A stretch of 64,000 nucleotides of DNA, from positions 1 through 64,000 of the forward strand of contig JAQMWT010000565.1 of the NCBI GenBank assembly GCA_029834535.1, written 5' to 3'. The notes beneath the pieces are model-generated. The model saw only the letters and a program-made list of their open reading frames with translations, was not told where the DNA came from and did no database searches. A program made the translations under genes and the position numbers. The stretch is from Chrysophaeum taylorii (taxonomy: Eukaryota > Sar > Pelagophyceae > Pelagomonadales > Pelagomonadaceae). Positions 9,527 through 62,862 of the stretch are shown piece by piece (position 1 is the first letter of the stretch; every line of letters begins with the position of its first letter).

Positions 9527-9543
9527 AGATGCCTAACCCTAGT

Positions 9544-9622: not shown

Positions 9623-11652
9623 GTGTCGCTCATGTCTTTTTCTTGGCACTCCCGTGGCCGTGGCCGTGGCATCTCTCCAGTCGTTCGAAGGACATTTCCA
9701 CGCTCGCTTTCCACCACCGAGCCTTCTCCCAAGTTGTCTCAAAAGCGACAACCCACAACCTCTGTCACTCCTGCTACCTCCCAGGCTGCTACTGTCTCAC
9801 CGACACCAGCTGAACCTGTTTTACTACAATCCCTAACACTCCAGGATGGCCTCAACATGGATTTTGCCCTGATTGAACGAGGATACTCTCTCTCTGAGAG
9901 CTTCCGTACTCCTGCTACTCCCTTTCTCTCTTCTTTTATGCGAGCGGAAATCTCTACGGCACTCAACTCGATCTATGAATCTGCTGACTTTTTACTGTTT
10001 GTGGAACTAACAACATTCATATCCATGCGCTTACCCATTACTACATTTTGGGAAGCTGCTCCTGCTATTACTTCTATTGGCTGCTACAGAAGCCCCAAAC
10101 GTGAACGTTTCATTCTGTCATCATACTGTACGCAGTGCCTCAACGATTTGGGGCAACCTACATTTCTTGCCTCCACCACATATAATTCGAAGTCACAAGC
10201 ACCTAGTGAACTCCCCACTGAAGTGCGGAGTCACCTCAACACAGATGACCACAAGAAGAATGGTCACATCCCCATCTCAACTATCACCATTAACATTTGT
10301 TGTGCTTGTCACAACACCGATCAGGTGCCCATACAACCTATCGTATGTGCACGTAACGCTACTTCCTTCCAACCCTCCTGTGATGGGTGCTCAGCTGGTC
10401 ATATACGCGCAACCATCATACGCACGTATCATTTGCCAAAGGAGCTACATACTCTCTTGACTAGCAACGCAACATCCGTCTCTTGCTCATTTAGTCTTAT
10501 CAGTAACCGATGCAGCCACAGACTCCACCACTCAACTGCCATTCGCACTGGATCTTCGGCTTATTACTCAGATGCACCTGGAGCATTTTAACTTTCTTGT
10601 AACGCTCGTGCGAACACAGGCTCGTAAAACTCATGCTATGTTCAAGCCCACCAAATACCACCATGTGATTAATACTGTTGTCCAATCGTGGGCACAACAT
10701 CTTGACGACTACGTATCATCCTCAGATGACACAAAGCCGCCATCACTCCTGGACGTAATGTTCGGCCCCACCTATACTCCGGCAGAACATCAAGACTTTC
10801 TGCACTTTCTAAACACGAAATACCCCCTACTTGCACAGCATGTGTTGACCGAAACGTCATTAAACTACTCACTTCCCACATCAGAATCTACTCTGGAAAT
10901 GTCTTCGCCATCGACACACCCTGCTCCTTCTGCCTCGCCTGATGATGTCGATGCCTTGCGTCAACAAGTCGAGCAACTCCAGGAAACTCTTCGCCTATAT
11001 ATTCGCAAGTGTCAACACCCTCAGCGCTGAGAATCTATCTCTGCGGACAGATATGCAGGCTGCCATTGCTTCAATTACCTCCCTGGAGAACCGGCTCTTT
11101 CCTCCTACAGCCAATGCACACGTGTTGCTCGTAACATTGTTCAAGATCACAGAGCTACTGTCTCGCTTAACTCTAACAGCTCATGACCAATATGCCGCCA
11201 ACCATTCCTCCCCGGACGATCACCTCCATCGTCTGCGTGATAATTTGCTCTCGTGTATTCAAAGCATTCCCTTCGCATGTGAATAGGAAGACTCCTCTAT
11301 CTTCTCGGATCCGTTCGCTGAGTCCAACTTCTTGGAAAACCAACTGGACACCCTAAAACTTGACTCACTAGTGCCATCCCTACTGAAAGCTTTACTTGCA
11401 CTCACGTTTCGTATGGTACCACACCATTCTGCTATTGGTGTTCACCACCTTACAGCAGAAGCTGACGAAGAAGATACCGATACCCTCGAACCAGTAACGA
11501 TGCCCACCACCTCAGATAGCCGCAACACACTGTCTGTTCAACAGTACCTGTGTTTCGTAATGCTCTGTTTAAAAGCGTCAAGTCGACTCTCAACTCACCA
11601 AGTTCAAGTCCCAAGCCCTAAGACACCCTACTATGCTCTTGATGCTTCTTAG
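9623..11652 (+). pseudogene. Extra ORF region between RNase H and the 3' LTR
   Basis: Most copia elements end soon after RNase H; this one has about 2.1 kb more with coding character in three successive frames: 9623-10591 (322 codons), 10572-11030 and 10942-11652 (one in-frame stop at 11284). The first begins with an R-G-R-G-R-G basic stretch and Ser/Thr/Pro-rich segment and later shows C-x2-C pairs (C-T-Q-C, C-C-A-C, C-D-G-C) that could bind zinc. The later part has heptad-like Leu/Gln/Glu spacing near 10940-11100 (coiled coil). I do not recognise a family; there is no signal peptide or membrane segment to support an env-like role. Confidence 0.55.
10847..10867 (+). other. Repeated SLNY motif, copy 5 (inside the extra ORF)
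   Basis: Fifth copy; in the open frame it reads L-T-E-T-S-L-N-Y-S, between a folded-looking part and a Ser/Pro linker leading to a coiled coil. Confidence 0.75.
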
Positions 11653-11766
11653 GTGACCTCTGCGACCATCAAGACTGTAAGCTCCTTTCCTTTTTTTTTC
11701 TCCTGTTTTCATCATCATCTTTGTCAAGAGATACTCTTCAGTCGCACCTTGCGCTTAAGACATCTC

Positions 11767-11773
11767 GAGGGGG
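11767..11773 (+). other. Polypurine tract of the retrotransposon
   Basis: GAGGGGG sits directly against the TGCAGAG start of the 3' LTR, the expected place for the plus-strand primer of reverse transcription. Confidence 0.75.
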
Positions 11774-12095
11774 TGCAGAGAAATCTGCTGCCTCTTACCC
11801 TTATCTGTCCGTTGAGAACGTGATCTCTTCCTTACCCCTTCTTCTTCCTTTCTACACAATCAAATAGTCCTCTGATTCGTGCCTACGCTCATCATCATGG
11901 TCTAGCGCGTCCCGAGGTATGTAGCACTATACACTTTACCTTTCTCGTGTAGTTCTAGATGCCGCCTGTTGTGTTCTGAGGATATAGGGAACATACCTTC
12001 TTTTCATTCCCCGAATTAAATACTTCCAGACGTTCAAGATGAGACGGGATGGTGTCCCAGGTGACTGACTTACCACTGCTTGCGAATGTTCTGCA
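11774..12095 (+). repeat. 3' LTR, complete (322 bp)
   Basis: Starts TGCAGAG right after the polypurine tract and ends TTCTGCA, so its ends are short inverted repeats (TGCAGA/TCTGCA). Its last 254 bp align with bases 1-254. Confidence 0.92.
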
Positions 12096-21299: not shown

Positions 21300-22676
21300 T
21301 TAGTAGCGTGCGAAGAGCAAGGCGGCGTTGTGGCCGCCAAAGCCGAGGTTTTCGGAGATGGCGGCGGAAAAGTCGGCCTTGGGCACCGCCGCGTGGGGGA
21401 CGTAGTCGAGGTCGCAGTCGGGGTCGGGGGTTTGGAGATTGATGGTGGGCGGGAGGTGGCCCGCGTGGAGGGCGAGGACGGTGGCGACGGCCTCGATCCC
21501 CCCGGCGGCGCCAAGCGTGTGGCCCGTGGCCCCCTTGGTGCTCGAGACTTTGAGATGGTCCGCGTGGTCCCCAAAGACGGTGCGGAGCGCCATGGTTTCG
21601 AACTTGTCGTTATAGGGCGTGCTGGTGCCGTGGGCGTTGACGTAGCCGACGTCGGTCGGCGAAACGCCTCCGGCGTCGAGCGCCATTCGGAGACACTGGG
21701 CTAATCCCGCGCCCGTCGGCTCGGGGGAGGTGATGTGATGAGCGTCGCAGGTCGCGCCGTAGCCCTTGAGCTCGGCGTATATTCTGGCGTTTCTCGCGCG
21801 CGCGTGAGAGAGCGTCTCGAGGACGACGACGCCCGCGCCTTCGCCCTGCACGAAGCCCGCGCGGTCCTTGTCGAAGGGTCTCGAGGCGCTGGCGGGGTCG
21901 TCGTTGTATTTCGTGCACATGGCCTTCATCGCGCCAAAACCAGCGTACATGAGCTCGGTTATGGCAGCTTCCGAGCCGCCGGCGACGACGACGTCCGCCT
22001 CGCCGCGACGAATGCTGTGGAAAGCCTCGCCGATCGCGTGGGAGCCCGAGGCGCAGGCCGACAGCACGGCGAAGTTGGGGCCCTTGTACCCCAGCTCGAT
22101 CCCCACGATGCCGCTCGCAGTGTTGGCGAGCATCGACGGGATAGCGAAGGGGCTGACCTTGCGCGGGCCGCGATCTTTCATGCGCGCCAACTCGCGCTCG
22201 ATGGTCCCCATGCCGCCGAAGGCCGACCCGATGAGAACGCCGCGTCGCCTCGCTTCGTCCTCGTTTGGCGGGGGGAGTGCCGCGTCGTCCACAGCCATGC
22301 GCGCGGCGGCCATCGCGAAGTGCGTGTACCGGTCGTTGGAATTCGCGGTTTTCGGGTTCGCGAACCACTTTTTCGCGTCGAAGTCTTTCACTTCAGCCCC
22401 GATCTGGCACGCGAACCGCTCCACATCGGGGATCTGCTCCTCGACGCGTCCGATCCCGGTCTCTCCGCTCGTCAGTTTCTCCCAGAATTCGTTCGACTCC
22501 TGCGTGCCGAGGGCCGAGACGACCCCCACCCCCGTCACCACCACGGCCTCGGCGAAGCGAACCGGTCCTCGACGATAGTATTCCCCCGGAGGCGGCGCCG
22601 CCGCCTGGAACCCGGCGACGACGACGACCCATGCGGCGGCGGCGGTGGTGGTGACGACCACTGCAAACAACGTCAT
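21300..22676 (-). CDS. fabF: 3-oxoacyl-ACP synthase II (KAS II), plastid-targeted
   Basis: Condensing enzyme of type II fatty acid synthesis: elongates acyl-ACP with malonyl-ACP. 458 residues; the mature enzyme starts near residue 40. Catalytic triad: Cys208 in L-S-A-C-A-S-G-S, His349 in N-A-H-G-T-S-T and His386 in G-A-T-G-H-T-L-G-A-A-G. Residues 1-21 are a signal peptide (V-V-V-T-T-T-A-A-A-A-W-V-V-V-V-A-G) followed directly by Phe23 in A-G-F-Q-A-A, the bipartite targeting signal for a four-membrane plastid. It shares a 104-bp upstream gap with the divergent MutS2-like gene, also predicted plastid, which may mean shared control. Confidence 0.95.
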   Translation of the reverse strand: MTLFAVVVTTTAAAAWVVVVAGFQAAAPPPGEYYRRGPVRFAEAVVVTGVGVVSALGTQESNEFWEKLTSGETGIGRVEEQIPDVERFACQIGAEVKDFDAKKWFANPKTANSNDRYTHFAMAAARMAVDDAALPPPNEDEARRRGVLIGSAFGGMGTIERELARMKDRGPRKVSPFAIPSMLANTASGIVGIELGYKGPNFAVLSACASGSHAIGEAFHSIRRGEADVVVAGGSEAAITELMYAGFGAMKAMCTKYNDDPASASRPFDKDRAGFVQGEGAGVVVLETLSHARARNARIYAELKGYGATCDAHHITSPEPTGAGLAQCLRMALDAGGVSPTDVGYVNAHGTSTPYNDKFETMALRTVFGDHADHLKVSSTKGATGHTLGAAGGIEAVATVLALHAGHLPPTINLQTPDPDCDLDYVPHAAVPKADFSAAISENLGFGGHNAALLFARY

Positions 22677-31305: not shown

Positions 31306-32745
31306 CTAAAAACTGCTGGGATCATAATCGACAGGGGCAGCAGCAGCAGCCTCTAGAGGAGAGGGGGTGGTGCTGCTGTTGTTGTTTGCACAAAAGGCGG
31401 CGGCGAGCCAAGAGCCGGGGAGGTCGGGCTTTTCGGCGGGCTGCGTGGCATTTTCGAGCTCGCGCTCGAGGTGCCTGCGCTCCCGAAGGAGCATCTCGAT
31501 CATCTCGGACTGCATACGGAGCTCGTTGTTGAGGCGAGCGTTGTCGGTACGGTAGGCGTCGGCCTGGGAGACGAGGGTCTTGGCGGCGTCGTGGGCCTCG
31601 GCGAGCCTCTTCCACTCGGACTTGAGCGTGCGATTCTGCTCCTGGAGTATGCGAAGGCTCTTGTCGTGCGCGCGCTTTGCCTCGGCCAGGTCGCGCGCGC
31701 GCTGGTCGGCGACCTGCTTGAGCCTGGCCCGGAGCGCGTCCCGGTCCCGCTCGAGGTCCCGCCTGCTCGCGGAGCCAGGATCCTTGGTGGCATCGCTCGC
31801 TGCCCCCGCCTCCTCGGCCTCGCGAACCGCGTGCTCGAGCGCGTCCCGTCGCGGCTGCTCTTCGAGGTCGTCCGTCCAAACCGAGATGCTCCGGCGCCCC
31901 CCCGCCGAGGAGTAGTCGGAGGAGACCTCGTCGGCACCTCCCTGCTGGGCCTCGAAGAGCTGGGCCTCGAGCTCGGTGAGCCGCGCGTCGCGGTCCGCGC
32001 AAAGCTGTTCAATTTCGCGAGATGCGCGCGCCGTCGCCGCGAGGAGCTCCGCCTTGAGATCGGCGCGTTCCTCGACGGCGGTCTGGAGGTCGGCGAGCGC
32101 GGCGTCGCGGTCCTTGCGCACCGAGACGACTTCCGCGCGCGCGGCGTCGCGGTCCTTGCGCACCGAGACGACTTCCGCGCGCGCGGCTTGGAGCTCTTCC
32201 GCTCTCGCGGAAGCCTCGGCGCGCGCGGAGGCCGCGTCCTCGACGAGGCGCTGCTCGCTCCGGCGCAGCGCCTCGACCTCCGCCGCGTCCTCGGCCTTTT
32301 GGCGCAGCGCATCGCGCTCGGCCGCCACCGCCTCGACCTCGCGTTCGGCTCGCGCGAGCTTCCTCTCTGCTTCGGCGAGCTTCCTCTCTGCCTCGGCTCG
32401 CCCGGGCTCGACGACCGGGACGGCTTCGAAGCGCGTCGCCCGCGATGCTCGCGCGACCGAGAGCTCGTCCCGCAGCGTCTGGAGCTCGCTCTCGTGCTCG
32501 AGCCGCGCGCCGTCGAGCCTGGCCGTCGCCGACGCCGACGCCGCGAGCAGCTCGGCCCGCAGCGAGGCCCGCTCGGCGACGAGGCTCTGGACTTGGGCCT
32601 CGAGGGCGAGGCGCTCGGCCCGGTCCTCGTCCTTGGCCGCGGCCTCTTCGAGGGGCGACCGCGAGGGCAGTCCCTTGGCATTCCGGAGCGACGCGAGAAA
32701 CACCGACGTCGGCTTAATGGCGGGCAACGGCATATGTTGTGGCAA
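31306..32745 (-). CDS. Long coiled-coil protein
   Basis: 479 residues. From about residue 40 to 420 nearly all sequence is Ala/Glu/Arg/Leu heptads (for example L-A-E-A-E-R-K-L-A-R-A-E-R-E), interrupted near 255-290 by a non-helical S-S-D-Y-S-S-A-G-G-R-R-S-I-S-V-W segment that may be a phosphorylated hinge. A 14-residue unit (A-R-A-E-V-V-S-V-R-K-D-R-D-A) is repeated twice in tandem, copied by an exact 42-bp DNA repeat around 32093-32176. Likely cytoskeletal or tethering; no family recognised. The start lies 39 bp from that of the divergent Ntn hydrolase, so both promoters must overlap. Confidence 0.7.
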   Translation of the reverse strand: MPQHMPLPAIKPTSVFLASLRNAKGLPSRSPLEEAAAKDEDRAERLALEAQVQSLVAERASLRAELLAASASATARLDGARLEHESELQTLRDELSVARASRATRFEAVPVVEPGRAEAERKLAEAERKLARAEREVEAVAAERDALRQKAEDAAEVEALRRSEQRLVEDAASARAEASARAEELQAARAEVVSVRKDRDAARAEVVSVRKDRDAALADLQTAVEERADLKAELLAATARASREIEQLCADRDARLTELEAQLFEAQQGGADEVSSDYSSAGGRRSISVWTDDLEEQPRRDALEHAVREAEEAGAASDATKDPGSASRRDLERDRDALRARLKQVADQRARDLAEAKRAHDKSLRILQEQNRTLKSEWKRLAEAHDAAKTLVSQADAYRTDNARLNNELRMQSEMIEMLLRERRHLERELENATQPAEKPDLPGSWLAAAFCANNNSSTTPSPLEAAAAAPVDYDPSSF

Positions 32746-32784
32746 CGCGAGAATAAGTCCGTTGGAAGAATCCTAGGTCATGCC

Positions 32785-33897
32785 ATGCTGCTCCTCCCTT
32801 TGGTCGTGGTGGTGGGCCCCGCCACGGCGTGCACGACCGTCATGCTTCCCTTCGCCGATGATGATGACCAGCTGCTCGTCGCACGGTCGATGGAACTGGG
32901 GCTTCCCTACTCGTGGATGGATGCGTGGAAAATCAACGTCTGGCCGCGGAGCGAGGCGAACGCCTATGGCTTCGTTGGTGTCGACTTTGCGCGCGACGCG
33001 CCGGTCCTCCCGCACCCGCTTCTCTATGGCCTGTGCGAGGGCATGAACGAGCACGGGCTGACGGTATCCACGCAAACGCTGCACCAAGCGTCGTACGAAC
33101 GCGCGAACCCGGCGCGACGCGACGTCCGCTTCTCGAGCTTCGTCGCGCTCGTCCTCGGATCTTGCAGAAACGTCGCCGACGTCCGCGTCCTGCTCCGACA
33201 CAACGTTTCCATTGTCGGCGGCGATCTGGCGGGCCAGCACTGGGCCCTCGCCGACGCCGACGGGCGCGCCGCGATCGTCGAATGCTTAAACGGTAACCTC
33301 TACTTTCACGAAAATGTCACCGACGTCGGCGTCCTCACGAACGATCCTGATTACGTATGGCACCTGCGCCACCTAAACTACTACGCCGCCTTCCCGTCGT
33401 CCGACCCCATGGAGACCTTCGCCTTCCCCGCGAGTTCGGAGATAGGTGTCGTCCCCGCCCTCCTCAACCGCGGCGCCGCCAACCTTCCTGGCGGATACCA
33501 ACCTGCAGATCGATTCGTCAAGGCATTCCTTCTCAAAAAACTCGCTTACGGCCGCGACGATGCCACGAAGAATCTGGATTTCGCCGTGCGCCTCGCCACT
33601 GGCATCCTCAATGCAGTCCACATCCCTGTCGGTGCCGTTGCCAAGACCTCCCCCACTGACTTTCTCGAATTCACCAACTGGGCCGTCCTCAAGGTCCCGA
33701 GTCAGCGCCTTTTCTACTACCGCTCCTACGAGGACATGCAGTGGAAGCAGCTCGACTTGACCGCGGTCGACTTTTCCTCCCCTAATTACGACCCCATCAA
33801 TGTCTTCGATGGCTCGGGCATCGAGCGCATATCTTTCAACAACAACAACAACATCAAAAACAAGGTTGGCGGTGTCACATCTCTATACGAGTCGTAG
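32785..33897 (+). CDS. Secreted/lumenal Ntn hydrolase, penicillin V acylase/choloylglycine hydrolase family
   Basis: 370 residues. In this family the signal peptide or propeptide is removed so that Cys becomes the N-terminal nucleophile; here M-L-L-L-P-L-V-V-V-V-G-P-A-T-A is followed at once by Cys16 (C-T-T-V). The active-site Arg is R34 in V-A-R-S-M-E-L and the N-D-P near 33340 matches the conserved Asn of the oxyanion region (L-T-N-x-P). They hydrolyse linear amide bonds such as N-acyl amino acids, N-acyl homoserine lactones or conjugated bile acids. The last 30 residues are Asn-rich. I chose ATG 32785 because it starts the signal peptide; upstream in-frame codons are antisense to the coiled-coil gene. 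Confidence 0.85.
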   Translation: MLLLPLVVVVGPATACTTVMLPFADDDDQLLVARSMELGLPYSWMDAWKINVWPRSEANAYGFVGVDFARDAPVLPHPLLYGLCEGMNEHGLTVSTQTLHQASYERANPARRDVRFSSFVALVLGSCRNVADVRVLLRHNVSIVGGDLAGQHWALADADGRAAIVECLNGNLYFHENVTDVGVLTNDPDYVWHLRHLNYYAAFPSSDPMETFAFPASSEIGVVPALLNRGAANLPGGYQPADRFVKAFLLKKLAYGRDDATKNLDFAVRLATGILNAVHIPVGAVAKTSPTDFLEFTNWAVLKVPSQRLFYYRSYEDMQWKQLDLTAVDFSSPNYDPINVFDGSGIERISFNNNNNIKNKVGGVTSLYES

Positions 33898-46473: not shown

Positions 46474-47802
46474 TTAGGATTCTGCTTCGCGCGGTGGTCT
46501 TTCGTCGTTGGTGCGCTTGAAGTGCGAGGCGAGCGTCCCTGCGACAAAGGCGAAGGTGGCGCACATCGGCACGGCCTTGACGTAGGTTGTGCCGATGCCG
46601 GCGTAGAGGCTGGAAAGGGGCAAGGTGCGAAGCGCGGTCCACCAGGACATTTCGGCGGTCCCTCTAACCTGTGCGCGGCGGCGCACGACGTCCAACGGGT
46701 GGACTACCGACTGCGCGGCGAGGCCGGCCGTCGTGCCGGCCGCAACCAAAAGAGCCGGCGTGACCTCGACGTCGTAGACGTCGGCGGCATGTTTGCAGAA
46801 GTCGACCGTCGCGTTCTGTATCGCGACGAAGGGCACGACGCTGAGGAGGGTTGGCGCGAGGCCGCGGAAGAGTCCGCGGGGGTTGGCGAGACTCGTCGCG
46901 ACGATCCTCGCCGGCGTCGAGGAGGTGCCTTGGAGGACGGTCAACCGCGCTCTCAAGACATCTCCGGGATACGTAAGGACGTTCGCGACGAGCGCGGCGA
47001 CGCTCGCGCAGGCCATGCGCCACGCGGGTTCCGCGGCGTCGATCTCGTCTCGATTGATCGGCGCCACACCAACGAGCTGATTGTAGAGGGTGCACGTGAT
47101 CGCGGCCGTCGGGAAGACCCGGGCGCAATTCAACACGTTGCCAGCGAAGAGTCCGCGCGAACCCTCGACGCGCGCGACGCGCCGTAGCTCGCGCCACGAC
47201 GAAAATTTTGCCGGATCGGTCGACACCTGCGCTGCCAACTTGACGCGCTCGAGCGGAGCGACGACCGTCCGCGACGCGACGCCGGCGAGGCCTCCCGTCA
47301 CGACCGTTTGCCACGCCTCGAGCCCGTGGATGTGCGGAATCGCGTCGTCGAACGACTGCCGCGCCGCATGGAGCGTCGCGCGCGGCACGAATTCGAAGGC
47401 GTCGACGAACTCCTCGAAGTCGATCTTCCCCGATCGGTCGATGTCGACGCGCCGCATCAGCTCCTTCGCGTTGACTCCTCCGACCTTCCTCAGCGCCTCG
47501 CGCAGCTCGACCTCGTCTATGAGACCATTCCCCGACTCGTCGACCTCCCGGAACACGGCCTGTAGTCTCCCGAGTGCGAACAGCTTGCCAAATTCCGCGC
47601 AGTCGAGGTCGCCGCTCCCGTCGTCGTCGACGCGTCGGAGGAGCCTCTTCAGCTCCGCCTCGCCTACCTTGACCCCAAGATCCAGCAGTGCCGCGCGCAG
47701 TTCGTGACGATTCAGTTTCTGCGACGAGTCCACGTCGTGCGCCCGAAACACGGCGCGCACGCGCTCCTCGTGCCGCCTCTCGATCGCCCGCAGTGTCGCC
47801 AT
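46474..47802 (-). CDS. Calcium-dependent mitochondrial solute carrier (SCaMC/APC type)
   Basis: Exchanges ATP-Mg or ADP for phosphate across the inner mitochondrial membrane under calcium control in known members. 442 residues. Four EF-hands: D23-E34 (D-V-D-S-S-Q-K-L), D59-E70 (D-D-D-G-S-G-D-L-D), D88-E99 (D-E-S-G-N-G-L-I-D) and D120-E131 (D-I-D-R-S-G-K-I-D); loops 2-4 look competent, loop 1 has Gln-Lys in place of the usual Gly and is weaker. A linking helix (about 145-160) precedes three carrier repeats with the P-x-D/E-x-x-K/R signatures V-A-P-L-E-R-V-K, T-Y-P-G-D-V-L-R and V-H-P-L-D-V-V-R. Repeat 2 has Gly-Asp within the signature (P-G-D). Confidence 0.92.
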   Translation of the reverse strand: MATLRAIERRHEERVRAVFRAHDVDSSQKLNRHELRAALLDLGVKVGEAELKRLLRRVDDDGSGDLDCAEFGKLFALGRLQAVFREVDESGNGLIDEVELREALRKVGGVNAKELMRRVDIDRSGKIDFEEFVDAFEFVPRATLHAARQSFDDAIPHIHGLEAWQTVVTGGLAGVASRTVVAPLERVKLAAQVSTDPAKFSSWRELRRVARVEGSRGLFAGNVLNCARVFPTAAITCTLYNQLVGVAPINRDEIDAAEPAWRMACASVAALVANVLTYPGDVLRARLTVLQGTSSTPARIVATSLANPRGLFRGLAPTLLSVVPFVAIQNATVDFCKHAADVYDVEVTPALLVAAGTTAGLAAQSVVHPLDVVRRRAQVRGTAEMSWWTALRTLPLSSLYAGIGTTYVKAVPMCATFAFVAGTLASHFKRTNDERPPREAES

Positions 47803-49271: not shown

Positions 49272-52200
49272 TTATCTCGTCAGCGCACTGCGGTTGGGCG
49301 GCCGCAGGTACGGCGAGGGCCTTCTGGCTGACAGCTTGAAGTCGCGCAGCAAGGCGCTCTGCTCGCTGCTTTCTTGGCGGAGGAGGGTGGTCATTGGGCG
49401 CGTCACGACGGGAGGCTTTTGTTGACAGCAATGGTGGTCCAGGAACCAGCCTGAAACCCAGGAAAGTTCAAAGTCACACGATGCTAGCCGCCACTGGTCT
49501 GCCGCGAAGATCAGCCGGGTGCCGTCCTTGAATATCTTGTCGAGGATTGACCGGACGAGCGTGAAAGTGGCGAGGTCGCGAGCTTGCGCGGCGCGATCGG
49601 CATCCGTGCCGTCGAGACAGGCTTGAAGGTACTTGGTGAGGGTGCCTAGCATGGCTGCGTGCAATCGGGCCTTGACAGCTCCGGCCGTGTAAGACGTCGC
49701 CCGCGCGCCGCTCCAAACGTCGAGGCCCGCGTCGCGCGCGGCGCGTGCGCAATCCTTGGTCAGGATAACAGGACGCTCGTCGCCAAAGTGGCATTGGCTC
49801 ACCTTGTACTTGAGCTTCCATTGGGTGAGGACGAACTCGCAGAGTTGGAGGCATTCGGCGTGGGCGCGATGGACCGCCATCTCGACGCCCTCTCGTCCCT
49901 GCGACCCGAGGACCTTGGCCGTGCCGAGTTCCAGAACGCGCACGCCGTCCCGAACACCGATTGGCACGACGAGATACGTTTCACTGCCTACCGCGCTCTT
50001 GGGTCGGGTCTCGCTGGCCGACTTGGGTCGCGTCCGCGAGACGACGAGCGCCCTCGACCGCAAGTTCGTCGTGGAGCCGCCCTTTGATTGCGAACTACTA
50101 CCGAAAACCATCGTCGTGGCGGGGCCCAACGCGACGTTGGTCCCCGAATATCCAACGCCTACGATGGCGGCGAACCTCCCGGTTTGACGCGTCGACGACC
50201 AGGCGTGCCGCAAGGCCCGCGCCTCGTATCTCACGACTTGTTGCGTCGACAAAAATATGGCCGTCCAACTTCCGGGGCACGTTTGGCGAAGTGTCTCGAG
50301 CACCATGCGCTCCACGAGGTCATCTTGCTTTACCGTGGTAACCCCGAGCACAACCGTGATCTTCTCTTGTTGTTGTCGCGGCTGCGCGATGCTCGCCCGG
50401 ACCCCGCGTAGCCACTCGAGAACTCGAAAGATCTCTGTCGTCTCGCGGTCCAAGAGACGCATGCTGATTGACTCGAGCCGCGTGACGTCGACGCCACGCA
50501 GGCCGCGACGCGCACAAACGACAGCGTCGGTTGAGTCCCACCCACAGTCGCAGACGAGGAACCGGTGTTGTTGTTTCGAGCTCTGCGACTCGATCGGCAA
50601 AGGCAACGACACGGGCTCATCTTTTTCGACCTCGACGGTCGACGTCGCATGCTGATGAGGTTGCGTCGTTGAAAATCGTCCACCCGATTTCGAAGTGGGG
50701 TTGCTGGCCACCTCGAGGCTCATCGCGGGAAGGTCGGGAGCCGCGTTCTTGTCGTCCGAGCCCTCGTGCTGCTGTCGCTGCTGCTGCTGCTGCTGCTTGT
50801 GTTCTCGCGATTTAGCACTCTCGACATACGGCGGCGGCGTTTCTTTCGGCGGGTCCGTCGACCATATCGACGGATCGGCGCTCGTTTCCTGGCGGTGAGG
50901 AGGGACCGACGTTGTAATCGCTGTCGCCGCGGACCCGCTCGCGTCCCGCGACGATTTCTTGCAGTCGTGCGAGACGGACGAAGAATTATTTGGAGGTTGG
51001 AGGGTTAACGGCACGGCATCCTTCTCGTCGTTGGCCGCCTCCCCCTCCTCCTCCTCCTCTTCTTGAGTCCACTTCAGCTCGTTGTCGATGAAGACGAGCA
51101 GTTCTGACGCCGTCGGTCGCTTTTCGTCGTCGATTTGGAGCACGCGACTGAGAAGGCGAGCACATTCTTCGAGGAATCCCTGGTGTGCGTCGAGGTCGGT
51201 GTTGAACCAGCGGGACAACTCCTTCTTCCAGACTGCCACGTCCTTGTCCTGGGCGGCGACTTTGTTTTGGGGTGGTGATCTGCGGGCGTCGTCCGAGTCG
51301 AACCACGCGAACCACCGTTTCCACACGTCGCGTCGGGCCTTCTCGCCAACTATCAGCTGCAAGAACGTAATGCCCATACTCCAGACGTCGGCTTTGGTGG
51401 TGTATGCCGCTTGAAAGGCGTCTGGCCTTTTTTCCAAGGCGTCTTGCTTCGAGGGTCGGTAGCTGACAACTTCGGGCGCCATGAATGGAATCGATCCGGT
51501 TCTCGCGTCGCGCGGCAGCCGCTCGGTGACTCGGTAGCTCGTCGCAAGTCCGAAGTCGATGAACTTGACAGTCTCGTTGGAAGTCTCGTCCGTGGACACG
51601 AGAAGGTTGTCGGGCTTGATATCTCGATGGATGACTTTATTCTCCTCGAGTTCGGCAAGGCCTCGTGCCAGCTGGCATACTCGACGCTTCAACTTTCTCC
51701 GACTCGTCGTGGGGTCTCGGCAATATTTTGACAATGTGCCGCCCGTACCGAATTCCATGATGACGACGAGGAACTTGGAGGCGACGATCATCCACGTCAG
51801 CATCTTGACCACGTACTTACTTTCAGCCATGAGCTGCTGGTTTCGTGTTTCTTCGAGCGCCCGTTCGTGCGGGCCCCCCGGGTCAGCGCCGTGGATCTTG
51901 TCGTCGTCGTCGTCAAAGTGCGAAGGCCAAACTATTTTGAGGCAGTGCGGGCGTTTCGTATAGCGATGCTTGCACTTGTGGACCTCGCCGAACGAGCCAT
52001 GACCGACGCATTCGATCCATTCGTAGTCTTCGAGCGGGCAGCGGTCAGTCGGGAGCGACGCCATCATGAGAAGCTTGTAGAATGTTAAGCCCGGGACGTG
52101 AAGCAAGCAGTTGAGGAATTCGACAGTGAGTCGCCATTTGAGACTCTTCTTGGACGACGAGGTGAGAAGATTGTCCGGGGGCTGGAGGATCTCGTCGGCT

Positions 52201-55200
52201 GGCGTCGCGCGTCGAAGGGCAGCGGTGCGCAATTTGTCGTGGAGGAGATCGCGGTCTATCTCGAGCGATCGTGATTCTTGCGACGATCCTCCGGACTTCT
52301 TCAATCGGAACTTCTTCATGAACTGGTCCAGCAGTCTAGCTCCCGTGAGCCCGAGGTCGACGCACATCATATTTGCGACCTTGACGGCGTGCTTGCGGTA
52401 CTTCTCCAGCATTTCAGCCCGTTTGATGTTGTCCGTTAGTGGCCCGATTTGTTGAATGTCGGTCCACCACTGATACACGTCGTAGTGCTTGTCTGGATCT
52501 TTGTTGTCATTTTCCAGGCGCCGGAGCAACCAAACGCGTAATCCTTCTGGCGTATCGTCGCGCCACCACGCGTTTTGACTCGCGGCGTCTGGACTCCCGT
52601 CGGTACTCTCTTCCGGACGACTCAACGTGTTGTGGGACTTGATGATGTTTCTGAACTCGGCGCTGCGCCGTTCGTGCTGCTCCTCTTGCTTGGCGTCCTT
52701 GAAGAGTGACCGAACTCTTTCGCTTCTCGACGCGACGCCGAGCTGGTACAAACTTCTGTCGCCGACGACCCGCGCGTCGAGATCCGGCTTTCGTTTTGCG
52801 AGAAGCACGTCGATGCAATTCGCGAGGTTTTCAATGTCTTCGTCGGTGTTGGTCGCAAATTCAATCGCAAACATGCCGACCTCGAGCGGCGTCCGCCCAC
52901 CCGAATCGGTCGCGTCCAAGGCTTGCTGAAGGGAAGCATCCCCTGGTGCTCCTGCCGCCTCGAGCAATACCGAGAGTACCTTGAGATTACCGGTGGCCAC
53001 GGCCACGTGCACTGGCGTGCGCAGGAGCGGATGGTCCGAGTTGTGCACAGGCACTGTCGCGAGGGCCTTTTCCACGCGGTCGACATCCCCCAGGTGAGTC
53101 GCGACGTGCAGCGTTGACATCTTCCACGTCCCGTGACGCATGGCCTTTTCGAAATCAGACGGCACCAAGAGGCGGGCGTCGAGCGCGGGATGTTGAAGCA
53201 CGTGCGCAAAATTCGAGGCGCGTTTGTTGGGATCTTGCTGGAGGAGCCACGCGAGCAAGTCGGCAACAGCGGTCGAGCACGCGAGCGCGTGAGCGCGGAC
53301 GCCAACGGTAGCAGCCTCGGTCGTCCCCAGTCCTATGTTGTGGCAGATGTCAGCATCGATGGCCTTGGCGCACGCGTGGACAGCCCTGTCGATGTCGTCC
53401 GGATTCCACTCGCGCAGGCGCCGCTCCTCCCACTCGTCGCGCAGGTTATCGCGGTCGTCGGCAACAAATAAAGGCTGGCGCGAAAGAACGCGGTACATCA
53501 AGCAGCCGAACGACCACGCGTCGAAGCTGCGCTCCGCCTTGAGTGGTTCCCTTCCGATCTTGGAAGAAGACTGCTCGGCGCTCCCCGCTGCGTCGCTTTC
53601 GCATTTCGGGAGGATGAATTGCACGCGATTGTGCTCCGTATACGTCATCTCGGGTGGACAGTAGGCGGTGCTGAGCTTCCAGCCAACAGCAGAGTTGATT
53701 CGGCAACTCGCGTCGAGGTCGATGAGTCGCCAGGTCCCGTCGAGCATGCGCACGCAGTTGAGCGGCTTAATGTCCGCATGGATGAGTTGTCCTCGGGTGT
53801 GCAGGTGCTTGATGCACGTCGCGATACTGCGCAGCATGTCCTGGAGGCTCCGGAGGTCGTTGCGCTCTTGGACGAGCGCGACGAACATGTTGCGCTGAGC
53901 TGCCTCCATCACGAACCCGCACCTGCTGAACTGCTCAAACCCGAACTTTTCGGCGTCCTTCTTCCAGCGGTCGTCCTCTTCCTGGTCGCTGCTGTGGAGG
54001 ATGTCGATGACAAAGCTGTGATCGAGGCCCATGCGGTGACCGCACTCGCGATGGAACTGGTCTAGATCATCCATGAGCTTGATTATAACCTCGCGGTTCT
54101 TCTTCCCCTCGCGCTGGTCTTTGGCCCGCAAAATCACGCACGACTGCGACTGATGCTCGGGTGCCCGCGACAAGAGCTGGAACTTTCCACAGAAGTAGGT
54201 CTCGTCCTCTAGCTCGCGGCGGACGCGCGCTGTCGCGCGCGACATCGCCGTTCGGCCCTCGCCGTCGCACACGTCAACCAGGTCTGGAGCGTGCCGGCAC
54301 AAATACCTCGCGAGAAGCTCGCGGTCGGGTTCGTCTGAAGCGCAGATCTCGTCGTGCCAAACTGTACCGCCCGATCCCTCGGTGGACTCCTCCAGGAGCA
54401 CTTTGCGCACCGCTTGGGTCACCAACGACGTCGACTTCGTCGTCGTCGTCGGCAATGGGGTCGAGCCACCACCCTCCTCTGGAGCGGCCGTCGAAGCACG
54501 CAGCCCGTTTGTTGTCGTGCTCTGTTCCATTATTTCGAAAAGCTTAAAAATCTGAGTGGCCCTGTGCCAGAGCGAGTGCGAGAGCATTGTGGCCAAGATG
54601 GTCGTCGCCAACACCCTGTCTCTTGCCGCGAGCTGGACGAGAACATCATTGATCTCGGAATCTGCGGCCACGGGACCGCGGAGATTATTATTCGCGAGAT
54701 TGATCAGTTTACGCCGCAAGTCGGGCGTGACGCTTTTAATCCCAGGGTTCCGCTGCAAGATCTGGCGCGCGATGGTATGTTTGTTGAGCGTTAGCGCGTA
54801 TTGGAGCGCCTGCGAGCCGAGCCGCGGGAAGGCTCTGATGAGGATATCGACCGCGTCGGTCGAATTTGGGTCTTCGACTAGCAGGCGCCACAAACAATGC
54901 TTCGTTCTGGACGGACCAAACTCCATTTCTTCTTCGATGAGTAGCAACAAGAAGCACTTGGCGATCTCTCGGCAGTTAGCCTTGATTTCTTTGCATTCGG
55001 TCAAAAAACCCTCGGTTTTGCGTTGCAGGCGCCGAACGGTGGGCGCAGCATCCTCGAGAAGAAGAAGACCGTCGAGCTTTCCGCGCAGCGCAGCTGCGAT
55101 TCTCTCGGCATCCGCCGGGCCGAGCTCGAGCACAACAAGCTCTCGCACAAAGTCCGAAAGATTGACGTCGGCATCCTTGGAGACCACTTGGTCGCCCCGA

Positions 55201-58200
55201 GTCGTTTCGTCATCCGTGCGATCGACGTCGTACTCGAGAAATCGGCGGAAGATGTCGTGCCTGTCGTCTGCGCGGGGAAGCTCTTGCAGGACTCGTGTTA
55301 AGGCCGGCGCTTGGAGCGTCCGAGACGTACGCACGACAGCAGCAACGAGGTCGTACGCATCCTTCCGGCGTTGCTTTGCCGCCGGCGCTTCGCTAACGCA
55401 TTCGTCGCCAATCGATGATGAAGTCGCGTCGTCAGATAGAAGCCCGCTCACGCAGTCGAGGACCGTCGTCTCGTACGAAGGGTTAATTGTGGCGGCATTG
55501 TTGGCGCGCAGCAGCCAGACCGCCGCCGCCGACAGCTCGACGCTCAGCAATATCGCGAGGCGCGATTTAAAGTCGGCGTCGGCATCCGTAAAACTCCAGA
55601 GCGACTGGAAGAGGCGGGTTTTGAAGCGGACGAGCACGTCGTCGCACCTTCGGCGGACCTCCTCTTTCTGGCTTTGTTGTTGATTCGTTGAAGAGCCGTT
55701 CTCGTCCCGTCGGTGGAGGTTGGCATGTTGAACAACAGCGTTGAGGCTACTCGCGATAGCGAGGTACTCGTGATCATTCCTAATACGTATCTCGGGTTGG
55801 GTATTGAGCACGTGCTGGAACTTGGACGCCGTCTTATCGGCGCTCCGGACGCGTGCTTCAATCATCGGGTCCTTCAAGCTCGAAGTTCCCACCTGGCGTT
55901 CGTGACGTCGTTTGCTTCCAGTCATCTCCAGCGTCAAGAACAACGAAACGTCTTTCTGGAGGAGGCCTTTGGCGATATCTTCGGGCGCGTTGGCAACGAG
56001 TTCGGCTATCGTTGCATCTCGCCCGCACTGGGATTGTTCTGCGAGACGGAGTTGGATGAGCACGATTTTTTTTCCGAGGCGCCTCGCAGCGCGGTACGCG
56101 AGGACGGTGGCATCCTTCTCGAAGCAGCCTTCGTGGCAGACGAGCCAGAAGGAAGCGCACATGGAGACCAGCGCAACGATACGACCAAACCCAGACTTAG
56201 ACTCGAAGGCCTCGAGTGCTTGTTCGGCAGACCTCGACGTTTTGGCGCGACGTTCGTCGAAGGCATCGCTCGTGACGTACGCGCAGCCGTGTCGGTCGAG
56301 AGCGTCTTGGATGCCGCTGGCGACGTCGGGCATCGTCTTGCTGTCGAAGGCGACAAGAACATCAAACCTGTCTTCCCAAAGACTTATCCAACTCGCGCAT
56401 TTTTTGCCGCCGCAATTTTGCGCGACGACGACGACGACGGCATCGACGGTGTTGGCGTGCGCCGTCTCCGTTTGGACGTGAGGGAATCGGTCCAACTCGT
56501 AGTACTGTTCCTGGATGCGCTGAATGAACGATCCGGTCGACCAGGTCGCCAAGTAGGGGAACTTTACGTCTCCTTCCTTTTGGAAGTCCCACTCGCGTAC
56601 GAACAGGACGTTCACGTTCGTGGCGTTCTTGGACGTCAGAAAGTCGAGAACCCCCAACAATCGGATCGCGTTTGCCCGAACGAGCGCGTCATCTTTCTTA
56701 TCTGTCGGGGGTGCGGCTACGACGGCGTCGCACTGGCGCTGCACGCTGGCGAGCTCCAACCATTTTGGGGGTTCTTTTCTGTTGATGATCTCGCAGTCGC
56801 ACGCGCAGTAGAATAGTCCGGAGATGCAGACAATCTTGAGCGATCCTTGGTGCTTCCGCGTGGTGGTCATGCTGTTCCGGATGACATCGAGTTGCTCTTT
56901 GAGCTCCTTCGTTGTTGTTTTCGCGTCATCGCCGGCCAGCAACGTTCTCACCTTGTCCTGCCACTCTTCGTGCCTCCCCCGTTTTACCAACTCTTCGCCT
57001 TCGTTGGTCCCGATCTGCAAGCTCGCGTAGCAACGTTCGATCGATATCTGAAGAGAGCCGCGGCCGCCGGCAGCGACGGCGTCGAAGCCGCGCGTGTTGT
57101 TGTTCGACGCGCCACCACGCACCATTTTGCCATCGTCGTCGTCGTCGTCGTCGTCGTCGCGTAGTCCAACGACCTTTTGGTTACGAATGGCATTCTTGAT
57201 GGCAACAAACTCGAAGAGTGCCTCTATACACCCCTCCAATCGGACAAACTCGAACGTCGCACAGCCCTCTCCCACGAGTTTGGCATCGATAGCGCACTGC
57301 TCGATGTGCTTGATGAGCGGGTGTTTGGGTTCTTCTTCTGGAGCGTCTTCATTTTGTCCGGAAGAACCGCCGCGGTTTATCTCCTCCTCCTCCTCGGTGG
57401 CCCACTTTCGGTACCACGCGGTCGCGCCGACGGTGACTTGACGAATCGTGATGTCGCGACGACGCACGTTCGTATCGCGACGCACGCGCATCTTCCGAAC
57501 CTCGTTTTCGGCGCTTTCGAAAGCTTCGGTGACGCTGCGCGCCAATTCGTCGGTCCACTCGCGCTCGTGCAACGGGCCCTTTTCTACGTTTTCGGCCCCC
57601 CACTTTTTGCTGTCCTTGGTGTATTCCTTGAAGGTTTTGATCAGAACGTGCCCCGACGTATCGAGACAATATACCCGGAAAACACTCTGACCGGTACCGA
57701 GATCGACGTAAACGCTCGCGTGGCGATCGTAGTTCACGATCTTGTTCGCGGCAACGGGGTTGAGCAAGACTGGAACGGGAGGGCATACGTCGCCGATGCT
57801 CGCGCTATCCTTGTATGCTCGAAGCCCATCATCGGCGGACTGCAGGATCTGATCGATGGCCACTTGTTGCAGAAACAAGTGGCCCGTGTGAATCTCGACT
57901 AAATCGGCTTGCCGAAAGTCTGTCGCCCACCGTTCGTGGCGCGTGAACCAAAACTCAGCGTTGTCGATGAGCTTGCGCGCCTTTTGTTTGCCGTCGGGTG
58001 CGACGCAGAGGATGGTGTTGTTGGGACAGCGCATCGCCACTCGGATTTCAAGCGGCACATTCGGCGCGGAAAACACACCCTCCGTCACGATGACGACGAA
58101 AATGGCCGAGCCGCCGACGTTGTAGATAAGCGTCTCTTTGTCGTCCAAGGGTTGCATCATGCGCACTTTCTTGTAGCCGCGCATTTTGAGGAGCTTGGCG

Positions 58201-59409
58201 AGGTCCGAGGCCGCATGCTCGGCGGAAGCATTCCGCGTGTCTCGGGAGATGTAAAACGCATACTCGTGAGCGGCGCTCGCCTCGTTCTTGCCGAGGATCC
58301 GCGCGATGCGCTCGTTCGTGATGGCGTCGACGTCGGCGTCGCCGTTCTCGAAGACGCGCCATTCCCGGTATCGTGACAAGAATCTGCCGGCACCCCAGCT
58401 CAGATTTGCAAAGTCGCAAACTAACGGCATAAAAATGACTTGGGGTTTGAGTTGCGAGCGTATCCGCCGAGACCGTCCGCAGACCTCTGAGCACAGGTAG
58501 TTCAGGACGTGTTGCAGACGAGTGGCGTCAACCCGATCCTCTTGGGACCGATTTGGCTGAGTTGACCATCCGTGGAGCTCGTCACAGACCTGCTCGTGGG
58601 GCAAATATCCTTCGGACTTGATGAGCTCCGCGCCCGCGGCCGAACCGAAGACGTCGCGCGACACGACGAACCGGACGGGGCCGTTTGCGTTGGCGGCGGT
58701 CATCTCGAGTCTTTTTCCGAGTTGCTCGAGACTCTCTTTGACGCTGCTGGGCTGCTGGTACCATGCCAAGCTCCCGTCGGTTGTGAAAATCCCACTGCGC
58801 GGGAAGGGCACGTAGATTGAGTAGGGTTGCACGGTCACCGTCAAGCCGCCGGCGTCGCCGGTTATCATGCCATTCGGGGGCTCGCTCTCGTTGGCACCAT
58901 TTGCCTTCTTCTTTTGCTGCCTCGTGAACCAGGCCAAGACTGCATACCAGCGGTAAAACTCTTCCTGGCGCCAATCGAGCAAACAAGTCGTGGCGTCCCG
59001 TTTGGAAGCGTGTCCTCCGAGCGTCTCCCGCTCGATCTGCCAGGTCGTTGGCTTCTTCGGCGCCGCCTTCTCGATGCTTTCGAGTACCTTCAAACACAGC
59101 GGAGTGTTGCCGTCGCCACTTTTTTGCGCGAGGCTGGGGCGGTTCTGGCCATACGCCAACAAGAGCTTGGCGGTCGCGGATTTATGGTTGCCGGCAAACT
59201 CGGCCTTTAGTTCCTCATCCCAGGCTTTTCCGAGGAGACCCCAGAGCTCTTGCGCATACGCTGCCAGTCGTTTCTCGCTTTTGATTTGGGCCGTCGAAAG
59301 CCGGGGCAACGCTCCTAGAGTCCCGCAGCGAAACGGCATTTGTCCGGCGCGCGTTGCTTCGGGGGTCGACGTTGGTACGAAGTACGTTACTTTCACGTCG
59401 AACTTCGAG

Positions 59410-59440
<31 letters not shown>

Positions 59441-60284
59441 CAGTGGCCTCATCACCGTCATCGTCGTCGAGTGGACGTACATATACAAGTAGCTGGATCG
59501 ATTTCTGCCAGTCTTCGGCCAATTCGACGTCGTCGAGTGGTGACGACACGTCGCGCTGCGCCCGAAGGAGAGTCTCGCATTTGATGAACGTGTCGTCGCA
59601 GTTCAAAAGGATGTCATGGATGAGCGAGGCGTACGGTGGCTTAGCAGCTTTGAACCGCATGGTCTCCCTTTGGTCCAACCGCTCCGCCAACCAGCGCTTG
59701 ACGTCGGGGAGCTTGCATCCCGTCGCGAGCCGCTTATAAACGGTTGCATCGTCATCCGCCGATGTCTCTGGGTCATCGAAGACAACTAGGCTCCGCGTCA
59801 TGAATACGAGGGCGGCTCGAATTGCCAAGAGAGCCACGTCGGTCTCCGTGCTTAGTCCGCCTCGAATCTTGCCGGCGTGGACGCCCTCGCCGTTGATGAG
59901 CTCGAGCATCTGCGGCGTGAGTACCAACAAAAACAGCGCGCATTTGTTGACGGCGTCGACCACGCCTTCAGGGCTCGCGTGCCGCAGATGCGACTTGGGA
60001 CCGATGTCCAGGCACGACAGTTGCTGCGAAACGTGGTAGACGTGTCGCTTGAGCGCCTCGCCCAGGCTGGGCTCGGCCGGGCTCGAAACAATAAAGAAGC
60101 TGTGGGTCTTGAGCTTGAGATCCACCTTCCCGTTGTTCTCCTTGAATCGCCGCACAAAATTGTAGTACTTGTTTTTGCGGTCGAGGCTCGCGGACTGTCC
60201 TCCACCGGAAGACGCGTCGAACCCCAAAGAGGAAGAGATGGTGGGCCACGGCTCGCTCATCGTCGTGCTGCACACTAACAACAA
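49272..60284 (-). CDS. Giant multidomain signalling protein: TIR-like domains, CD39/ASKHA-like domains, two protein kinases, ankyrin-like repeats
   Basis: 3,670 residues in one uninterrupted frame; start 60284 or 60260. Domains by residue: about 60-200 an alpha/beta TIR-like unit (H-S-F-F-I-V-S-S-P-A-E); 672-790 a second (E-Y-A-F-Y-I-S-R-D); 850-1090 a GDA1/CD39-like ATPase (Y-V-D-L-G-T-G-Q-S, V-G-A-T-A-W-Y-R, L-E-G-C-I-E-A-L-F-E-F, G-R-G-S-L-Q-I); 1305-1430 a third TIR-like unit (F-D-V-L-V-A-F-D-S-K); about 1800-2020 ankyrin-like helices; 2030-2365 kinase 1 with H2169-A-D-I-K-P-L-N and L-I-D-L-D; 2389-2520 ankyrin repeats; 2750-3060 kinase 2, canonical, with G-H-G-S-F-G-E-V at 2761, Lys2783, H2886-R-D-I-K-P-D-N, D-F-G and M-A-P-E; a Gln/Ser-rich linker; 3242-3560 a second ASKHA-like unit (C-D-C-G-W-D-S-T-D, V-G-V-G-Y-S-G-T-N). 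Kinase 2 should be active. The TIR and ASKHA calls are pattern-based and tentative. Confidence 0.85.
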
Positions 60285-60759: not shown

Positions 60760-62862
60760 ATGGAGAGTGTGCCTGGCAAGTTTTTCGAGCGGCTCCACGC
60801 GATGGCGAGCGTGCGGCGGGAGGTCGATGCCGCTGTGGCGAGGTGCACGCGAGGAACCATCGCGTCGTGCTTGTGCGACGTCGAGCCCCCAGCACCACTC
60901 GTGCAGAGCTTTGGTCCGCACGAATCGTACGAGATAGAAGCAGTACCGCAGGCGCCTGCCGAGGAGCTCCAGTGGATCAAGGCGCTCGATTCGGCGTACT
61001 TGGTGCTGAACGATGCGGCCGCTCGGCGATTGCGGTCTCTCTATGCCGTGGCCGACGCGGTGCAGCCTCGGTTCCGGGCGTTCGTGCGGTCGGCGCTGCG
61101 CGCGTCCCTACCGAACTGCAACCCCGACGAGGTACTGTTTTCCGTCCGAGAGCCTGGCCGGCCCGAGCGCAATTTTCGGTGCTTCACGCCCGGCCAGCCG
61201 AAAAGGTGGATCCGCGCGGTGGAGAAGACAGTCTTCGAGAACGGCAGCGACCCGAGCCGGCTCCTGGACCTCGCGCGCGGGCTCGTCCTGCTCGACACCG
61301 AGGCTGAGCTCGTCGAGTTTGTGAAGTTCATCGTCAGTTCCTCCTCGTCGCCCGGCGGCGAGACCGTCACTTTGGCGCGCCTGAAGAACCGGTTCCGGAG
61401 CCCCAGGGTCAACGGCTACCGCGACGTGCTCCTCAACCTGCGGTTCTCGGTGCCGGGCGTCGGGCACCACTACGCCGAGCTCCAGCTCAACCTGACTGCC
61501 GTCGCCGAACTCCAGCGCGAGCAGTTTCGACTCCACAGGCAATACGAGTTCTGGCGCTCCTACTTTGTTGGCAACCACGAGCTCATTGCCCGTTGCGCGC
61601 GAGCCCTCGCGGCGACCGACGACGTCCGAGGTGCGCGGGCCCTGTGGGACGATGCTCCCGGGCTCGAGCGATACGATGATGTGTTGCTGGATCTGTCGCT
61701 CGACTACGACGCCCAGGTTGCGGTACGGCGACGTCTCGTGGAACTCGCACCCGTCGACGCGGCGCGACACTACGGTCGGCTCGGGCGTATCGCGCTCGAA
61801 CGCGGCGCGCTCGCCGACGCTCGCGCGCATTTCGACAGGGCCCTCGGGCATGCCGCCGGTCGCCCGTTGGACGTCGCGCGGACGCTGAGCGACCTAGCCG
61901 CGCTCGAAATCGCGCGCGGCTTCGACGAGGACGCGCTACGGCTCGTCGAGCGCGCGATAGCGTTGCATCGCAAACATGGCGCCGCCGCCGCCGCCGCCGC
62001 CGCTTTCGACTCGGTCCCGTATGCGGTGGCTCTCAGCCAGCTTGCGTGTTTGGTAGAGAGCCGCGAACGAGCGGCGCAGTGCGCTCGACGAGCTGTCGCC
62101 ATCCTGGGCCGCTGTTGCCGCGAGCATGTTCGTAACGAGGCGCGCGCGCTCCTCGCTCTCGCGTCGCTCCAAGACGTCACAACAGCCAGAAATCATCAGC
62201 TTCGGGCGATACAATTGCTGCGCCACTGGCGCGGACCGTTCGATCCAGTTCTCGCACAGGCGTATTCAGCCTACGCGACGTCGCTCGCTCATCTCGGCGA
62301 CCCGCGGGCTTCGCGATTCCACGAGTCTTCCCTCGAGATCGTGGCGTCCCATTTCGGAAAAAGACATCTTGCTCGCGTCGGCCTCCTCCGCGCGTACGCC
62401 TCGACCCTCGCCCGCACCGGCCAGATCGCCGACGCTCGCAAAATGCTGCACGAGGCTCTCGACGTCTACGCCGCCAATCCCGACCTCCGGCCCACCGTCA
62501 AGGCGGCCTGCCTCCACGACCTCGCGACCGTGATGAGAACCGACGCCGAGGCCATCAAGTTGCATCGCCAGGCGCTCGCCATTGCCATGCGCGAGCTCGG
62601 CCGGACGCACGCCCTAACGCGACGCTTTCAGGCCGCCTGGTATGCGGCGTGCGGCCGAGACCCGCCCACCACCTCCAACGGCCCCCCGGCGACGATGACC
62701 CCGCGAAAAACGCCATCCCCCCTGCAGCAGCAGCCGCAGCAGCAGCCGCAGCCGCAGCCGCAGCCGCAGCCGCAGCCGCGCGGCGGAAGAGGAGGAGTAG
62801 CCGCCTCGGTAGTGCGGCGGCGCCTCCTAAAGGCCGCGGCGGTACCACGCTCCCGTTCTTAA
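60760..62862 (+). CDS. RelA/SpoT-like nucleotidyltransferase domain fused to TPR repeats
   Basis: 700 residues. Residues about 145-265 follow the RelA/SpoT synthetase-like fold: L-L-D-L-A-R-G-L-V-L-L-D-T, L-A-R-L-K-N-R-F-R-S-P-R, G-Y-R-D-V-L-L-N-L-R-F (the R-Y-x-S/D-x-x strand) and H-Y-A-E-L-Q-L-N-L with the Glu of the E-x-Q motif. Such domains make pyrophosphorylated or other modified nucleotides; many eukaryotic copies are uncharacterised. Residues about 275-640 are TPR-type helical pairs (for example G-R-L-G-R-I-A-L-E-R-G-A-L-A-D-A-R-A-H-F and Y-A-S-T-L-A-R-T-G-Q-I-A-D-A-R-K), likely protein binding. The tail is a Gln/Pro run and basic residues. Divergent from the giant signalling gene; stop 13 bp from the convergent WLM gene. 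Confidence 0.78.
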   Translation: MESVPGKFFERLHAMASVRREVDAAVARCTRGTIASCLCDVEPPAPLVQSFGPHESYEIEAVPQAPAEELQWIKALDSAYLVLNDAAARRLRSLYAVADAVQPRFRAFVRSALRASLPNCNPDEVLFSVREPGRPERNFRCFTPGQPKRWIRAVEKTVFENGSDPSRLLDLARGLVLLDTEAELVEFVKFIVSSSSSPGGETVTLARLKNRFRSPRVNGYRDVLLNLRFSVPGVGHHYAELQLNLTAVAELQREQFRLHRQYEFWRSYFVGNHELIARCARALAATDDVRGARALWDDAPGLERYDDVLLDLSLDYDAQVAVRRRLVELAPVDAARHYGRLGRIALERGALADARAHFDRALGHAAGRPLDVARTLSDLAALEIARGFDEDALRLVERAIALHRKHGAAAAAAAAFDSVPYAVALSQLACLVESRERAAQCARRAVAILGRCCREHVRNEARALLALASLQDVTTARNHQLRAIQLLRHWRGPFDPVLAQAYSAYATSLAHLGDPRASRFHESSLEIVASHFGKRHLARVGLLRAYASTLARTGQIADARKMLHEALDVYAANPDLRPTVKAACLHDLATVMRTDAEAIKLHRQALAIAMRELGRTHALTRRFQAAWYAACGRDPPTTSNGPPATMTPRKTPSPLQQQPQQQPQPQPQPQPQPRGGRGGVAASVVRRRLLKAAAVPRSRS

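Follow-up and report, generated by a model that had tools for sequence, protein, structure and literature searches.

A single-frame, probably cytosolic giant protein of Chrysophaeum taylorii with two kinase domains, ankyrin repeats and two putative TIR-like regions

The sequence analysis was applied to a 64,000-nucleotide stretch of the genome of the pelagophyte Chrysophaeum taylorii (assembly GCA_029834535.1, contig JAQMWT010000565.1, positions 1 to 64,000; hereafter the window), in which a single open frame on the minus strand encodes a giant protein. Our tentative preference is for a real single-frame, probably cytosolic, lineage-specific giant signalling protein acting as a scaffold kinase: it harbors two protein kinase domains and ankyrin repeats, and two divergent TIR-like domains, moderately supported by profile comparison, would lie in its N-terminal fifth. 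The combination of these domains is new, and the individual parts are of known kinds. The features that the argument needs first are as follows (residue numbers throughout are counted from the TTG at 60284):

49272..60284, minus strand: single open frame, 3670 codons plus the stop codon TAA
59901..60101, minus strand: TIR-like region T1, core residues 62-128, profile match, possibly extending to residue ~180 by eye
58032..58262, minus strand: TIR-like region T2, residues 675-751, profile match
53184..54107, minus strand: kinase 1, residues ~2060-2367, Pfam PF00069, divergent
52866..53123, minus strand: ankyrin repeats, residues ~2388-2473, Pfam Ank_2
51096..52025, minus strand: kinase 2, residues 2754-3063, Pfam PF00069, canonical

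The frame had its listed start codon TTG at 60284 and its TAA ending at 49272, with a stop-to-stop span of 3696 codons; a first-pass annotation, made by reading the letters, had given this single 3,670-residue frame exactly and had left its strand, which is minus, unstated. The first in-frame ATG, residue 9, lay at 60260 and was flanked by A (-3) and G (+4); translation therefore most likely starts there, giving a giant protein of 3662 residues. The longest frame among the remaining five over 49272-60284 had 375 codons, the longest one in 200 second-order Markov simulations of the stretch had 796 codons versus the actual 3670, and the frame contained no N bases. GC contents at the three codon positions (GC1 0.56-0.65, GC2 0.40-0.54, and GC3 0.67-0.78) were coding-like in all 13 blocks (300 codons each, 71 in the last one), which argues against the joining of unrelated frames. 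The frame is confirmed as real and as one coding frame.

Two kinases plus ankyrins, as had been read by eye, were both recovered by Pfam. Kinase 2 alone matched PF00069 with an E-value of 6.5e-40 (137.6 bits versus the cut-off 31.7), and it displayed a GHGSFGEV loop, Lys2783, HRD at 2886-2888, Asn2893, DFG from 2910, and APE; it can be assigned with certainty to the protein kinase superfamily, as a member having the full set of catalytic motifs. The nearest PDB kinases were MINK1/TNIK and CDPK chains, which aligned with kinase 2 over the full domain and shared its canonical motifs, but they were distant from it (best E-value 1.8e-14). In searches of the organism's own genome (C. taylorii assembly, 70.8 Mb, 697 contigs), the matches of residues 2370-3090 were centred on kinase 2; many C. 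taylorii kinases were similar to kinase 2 and none was close, the top-scoring one having 36% identity over 145 query residues. The ankyrin repeats matched Ank_2 with an E-value of 1.1e-6 in the whole protein and of 3e-8 (34.6 bits versus the cut-off 27.3) in a piece, and their presence is likewise predicted with certainty. Several candidate kinships were rejected: (i) kinase 2 matched the model of MAD6, the kinase of methylation-associated defence (PADLOC mad6), but with an NCBIfam score of 76.8 versus the cut-off 460, and this match is generic because all seven other C. taylorii kinases tried, six of which were the best Pfam kinase matches of the genome, outscored kinase 2; and (ii) BH1974-like, ATPgrasp_N, FKRP_N, L27_1, and other weak Pfam matches of pieces were below the cut-off.

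Kinase 1 matched PF00069 with an E-value of 1.9e-19 (70.6 bits versus 31.7; piece composed of residues 2080-2380). Reading by eye located Lys2069, Glu2080, HAD at 2169-2171, Asn2176, and DLD at 2189-2191, and kinase 1 thus appears to keep most catalytic motifs (Lys, Glu, the catalytic Asp, and Asn); it failed the test for the canonical form, since no glycine-rich loop was visible and HAD and DLD stood in place of HRD and DFG, respectively. The own-genome matches of kinase 1 lay at three loci on contigs C359 and C418: two of them (L011 and L012) encoded leucine-rich-repeat kinases, and the third was L013. With residues 1261-2200 as the query, L011 and L012 matched only inside 2098-2197, namely the kinase 1 part. 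These two had IHAD[LI]xPLN, WRLID, and YCPPE in common with kinase 1, including the same HAD, and they carried DFD or DMG where DFG was expected; they differed from the giant protein in that their frames bore leucine-rich repeats. L011 and L012 also contained additional uncharacterised C-terminal regions, which were mutually similar by eye.

These motifs bear on the alternative that survives best, which we nevertheless hold to be rather doubtful: the protein would be a scaffold or pseudo-enzyme only, with inactive, degenerate TIR-like and perhaps ASKHA-like domains, kinase 1 being a pseudokinase and kinase 2 alone signalling. The invisible glycine-rich loop and the HAD and DLD forms of kinase 1 are consistent with it, and weak TIR scores (see below) would fit degenerate domains; however, kinase 1 retains Lys, Glu, Asp, and Asn by eye, and the occurrence of HAD in L011 and L012, together with their replacement of DFG by DFD or DMG, suggests a conserved variant of kinase 1 rather than decay.

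The Pfam models TIR and TIR_2 had no match in the C. taylorii genome. Because Pfam was silent on TIR, profiles of bacterial TIR_2 (PF13676) domains were built, and the whole protein was scanned blind with them: (i) with a 9-domain profile, hhalign ranked T2 as the first region (59.3%) and T1 as the second (14.8%), the best decoy being 5.9%, and hmmsearch gave T2 11.3 bits; and (ii) with a larger profile (33 of 34 fetched bacterial domains; 360 segments scanned), the top seven of the 360 segments in hhalign were all over T2 or T1 (24-50%, with maxima of 50.0% for T2 and 36.9% for T1; best decoy 8.5%), and these windows also came out on top in hmmsearch (5.1-10.3 bits; best decoy 3.0). T2 aligned with TIR_2 over the core up to the conserved-Glu helix, with strand A included when the 9-domain profile was used, but its alignments gave no match past this helix; Glu746 of T2 aligned with the conserved Glu of the profile, a position that is catalytic in TIR NADases. 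The T1 alignment was short (25 columns). When T2 was leading and aligned with T1, the value was 92.6%, compared to maxima of 72.0% for 60 shuffled versions of T1 and 85.6% for 40 other windows of the protein; when T1 was leading, its value with T2 was 83.7%, compared to a maximum of 78.0% for 60 shuffled-T2 controls. Both candidate domains have moderate support as TIR-like, T2 more than T1.

TIR-like regions had been claimed by the first-pass annotation at residues 50-210, 660-800, and 1290-1440; the first two were picked up by the blind TIR_2 profile, and the third was not:

56040..56372, minus strand: region T3, alpha/beta-looking by eye, residues 1305-1415, TIR assignment unsupported

T3 had a value of 0.9% with the TIR profile. 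The joint value of T2, T1, and T3 (92.9%) fell inside those of 40 shuffled-T3 controls (maximum 94.8%), and T2 with T3 reached 85.9%, while the highest of 40 pairings with other windows was 85.6%; T3 thus added nothing beyond its shuffled controls and was rejected as a TIR domain.

It is unlikely, in our estimate, that the TIR resemblance of T1 and T2 is a general alpha/beta similarity and that the protein amounts to a large ankyrin-kinase padded with lineage-specific filler. This alternative draws on the failure of Pfam to find TIR for T1 or T2 in the whole protein or, at E 10, in its pieces, on PDB sequence searches, which likewise returned no TIR, on the length of the T1 match (about 25 residues), and on the hmmsearch score of T1 with the 9-domain profile (3.9 bits), just below that of the best shuffle (4.0). 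Three controls speak against it: (i) a response-regulator profile (30 domains), also of alpha/beta type, did not pick T1 or T2, the real windows having at most 3.8% and the best decoy 4.9%; (ii) the TIR profile gave at most 4.3% on 331 windows from 31 other C. taylorii frames (20 of them at kinase loci); and (iii) T2 with T1 stood above all 100 controls. Seven single segments compared among themselves gave no signal.

The Pfam result and the hmmsearch score of T1 also count against the scaffold kinase that we favour, and so do five further points. The absolute TIR profile scores were weak, the best being 10.3 bits with 33 domains and 11.3 bits with nine; the 83.7% of T1 with T2 was below the highest value of T2 with another window (85.6%); AlphaFold (all runs made without an alignment) predicted residues 52-230, covering T1, as all-helical and unlike TIR, at a predicted local distance difference test (pLDDT) value of 41.4, which is too poor to count; no homologues were found that would reveal conserved residues; and a signalling role is assigned only through the types of domain present. 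For residues 660-1470, the mean pLDDT was 34.5, too low to read a fold.

The search for relatives was extended to 5.8 billion predicted proteins: no relative was found among 6247 scored candidates for residues 1-2080, nor among the 7989 candidates with the most shared words for residues 40-1260; the candidates were restricted to 0.55-1.75 times the query length, so shorter fragments would escape this search. No relative was confirmed in viral contigs, genome contigs queried with kinase 2 yielded none, and residues 3129-3670 had no other match in the own genome. As far as tested, the giant protein would be a lineage-specific orphan, the answered searches having given no relatives outside the kinase domains, and this orphan status makes conservation unusable for judging the protein. 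The first-pass annotation knew of no described protein with this architecture, and in agreement with it, the part of the literature covered by our search contained no such protein, nor any TIR work in pelagophytes.

The C. taylorii genome comprises 71 Mbp, 702 contigs, and 10,810 predicted genes, according to its published description (PMC10366177), which also reports RNA-seq. An 11-kb intronless gene had been thought remarkable in itself; five stop-free ketosynthase frames of the same genome were longer (5775, 5689, 5518, 4052, and 3946 codons), and the length of the giant frame is therefore ordinary for this genome:

Contigs C546, C557, C407, C24, and C10: stop-free ketosynthase frames, 3946 to 5775 codons in length

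The giant frame is large among the listed kinases of this genome, since the kinase-containing frames among the matches listed had at most 2100 codons (127 of 349 candidates scored; the giant frame itself being absent from the list).

CD39/ASKHA-like domains had also been assigned to residues 840-1260 and 3230-3570, and a nucleotide sensor had been proposed from them together with the TIR-like regions. The two regions under comparison were as follows:

57039..57719, minus strand: region A1, possible apyrase/ASKHA-like, residues 856-1082, four ordered motifs like apyrase conserved regions, unproven
50115..50567, minus strand: region A2, ASKHA-like according to the first-pass annotation, residues 3240-3390, weak Ppx/GppA values, unproven

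The proposal reads the protein as a sensor-to-kinase device for nucleotides: its TIR-like and CD39/ASKHA-like domains would bind nucleotides or cleave them and would thereby govern the kinases; we regard it as improbable. Besides the two TIR-like domains and the position of Glu746, it can draw on A1 and on one profile. A1 contained four short motifs in the same order as in GDA1/CD39 apyrases (PF01150), and its motif chain score (-10.8) was that of the best window in the protein (next -19.2), picking the same places as by eye and lying about 2.4 standard deviations above the mean of 150 shuffles (mean -26.8, standard deviation 6.7). With a Ppx/GppA profile, A2 windows had 3.2-3.7% versus 1.0% for the best decoy, and A2 leading with A1 had 9.5% versus at most 3.3% for controls; the reverse order gave 1.1%, and A2 alone gave 2.7%.

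Against this stand the following: (i) a GDA1/CD39 profile of 38 apyrases (35 of 120 listed relatives plus three from C. taylorii), aligned with segments by hhalign, gave 0.1% each for A1 and A2, no better than shuffles, windowed scans and paired segments gave nothing convincing either, and the apyrases had no profile-level similarity to the giant protein; (ii) the best shuffle (-7.0) scored higher than the motif chain of A1, six members of the apyrase family, all included in the profile, scored 97-229 on the same chain, and A2 (-24.4) was at the shuffle mean for that region (-25.1); (iii) the fourth A1 motif, AAGGRGSLQI by eye, had the acidic residue of the family substituted; (iv) kinase 2 windows also reached 2.2-2.3% with the Ppx/GppA profile; and (v) Pfam found no CD39 match in the whole protein or its pieces, the PDB sequence search with A1 returned nothing at E 10, and all PDB searches for the ASKHA part were unconvincing. 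The giant protein moreover lacked a hydrophobic N-terminus, in contrast to the secretory nature of known ecto-apyrases. Elsewhere in the C. taylorii genome, PF01150 had four matches, and one C. taylorii apyrase was CTAYLR_002961 (100% identity over the query). From these comparisons, A1 and A2 would not be placed in the apyrase family, and an ASKHA fold in them is unproven; because the GDA1/CD39 profile tests were negative and the Ppx/GppA values weak, the nucleotide sensor is not demonstrated. No NADase or ATPase activity is assigned to the protein.

A more elaborate reading, which we hold to be highly improbable, would see an intracellular receptor of an ochrophyte alga contained in one protein: a pair of TIR-like domains, of which one or both keep the conserved Glu, would sense the NAD or nucleotide state jointly with an ATP-binding module of degenerate apyrase type and switch the two built-in kinases, an immune-type architecture that would have evolved independently of the TIR receptors of animals and plants. 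Hardly credible is an artefact or a read-through of several genes, for which one could cite the lack of any annotated copy (no protein in the 5.8-billion-protein database matching residues 1-2080 or 40-1260), given that the codon-position signal is uniform over 3670 codons, that the genome has other very long single frames, and that none of the 200 simulations reached this length.

We return to the scaffold kinase as the tentatively favoured explanation. The most hydrophobic 19-residue stretches of the giant protein averaged only 2.0, with one inside kinase 2 and none at the N-terminus, and the protein is therefore probably cytosolic. The TIR-like, ankyrin, and other parts would bind partners and bring copies of the protein together, and in the clustered copies, the kinases would phosphorylate each other as well as downstream proteins. 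Such a scaffold kinase may serve a stress or immune-type signal, an input suggested by the domain types and by the receptor-like setting of the leucine-rich-repeat kinases related to kinase 1.

The remainder of the window displayed several other features. Positions 1-12000 had a GC content of 0.46-0.53 and a GC skew of -0.1 to -0.3, whereas elsewhere in the window the GC content was 0.56-0.68 and the skew deviated from zero by no more than about 0.16; megablast of positions 1-11000 against phages gave no match. A ketoacyl synthase frame (21303-22676, minus strand, 458 aa) had at most 59% identity to bacterial proteins, and its top matches, among the best 80 of 589, were mostly from Opitutae-type Verrucomicrobia. 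Further frames encoded (i) an 808-aa product ending in a choloylglycine-hydrolase-family domain (31471-33894, plus strand), (ii) a protein with EF-hand and mitochondrial carrier (46477-47802, minus strand), and (iii) a 700-aa TPR protein (60760-62859, plus strand), the divergently oriented neighbour of the giant frame.

The profile test based on controls thus found two TIR-like regions in a genome where Pfam TIR and TIR_2 find none. If these regions are not real TIR relatives, the case still gauges the reading of sequences by eye, two of the five named regions having passed the blind test and three having failed it. If they are real, this pelagophyte would possess TIR-type signalling that is missed by standard profiles and coupled to kinases without intermediates, and similar TIR-like regions may be concealed in further giant orphan frames from microbial algae.

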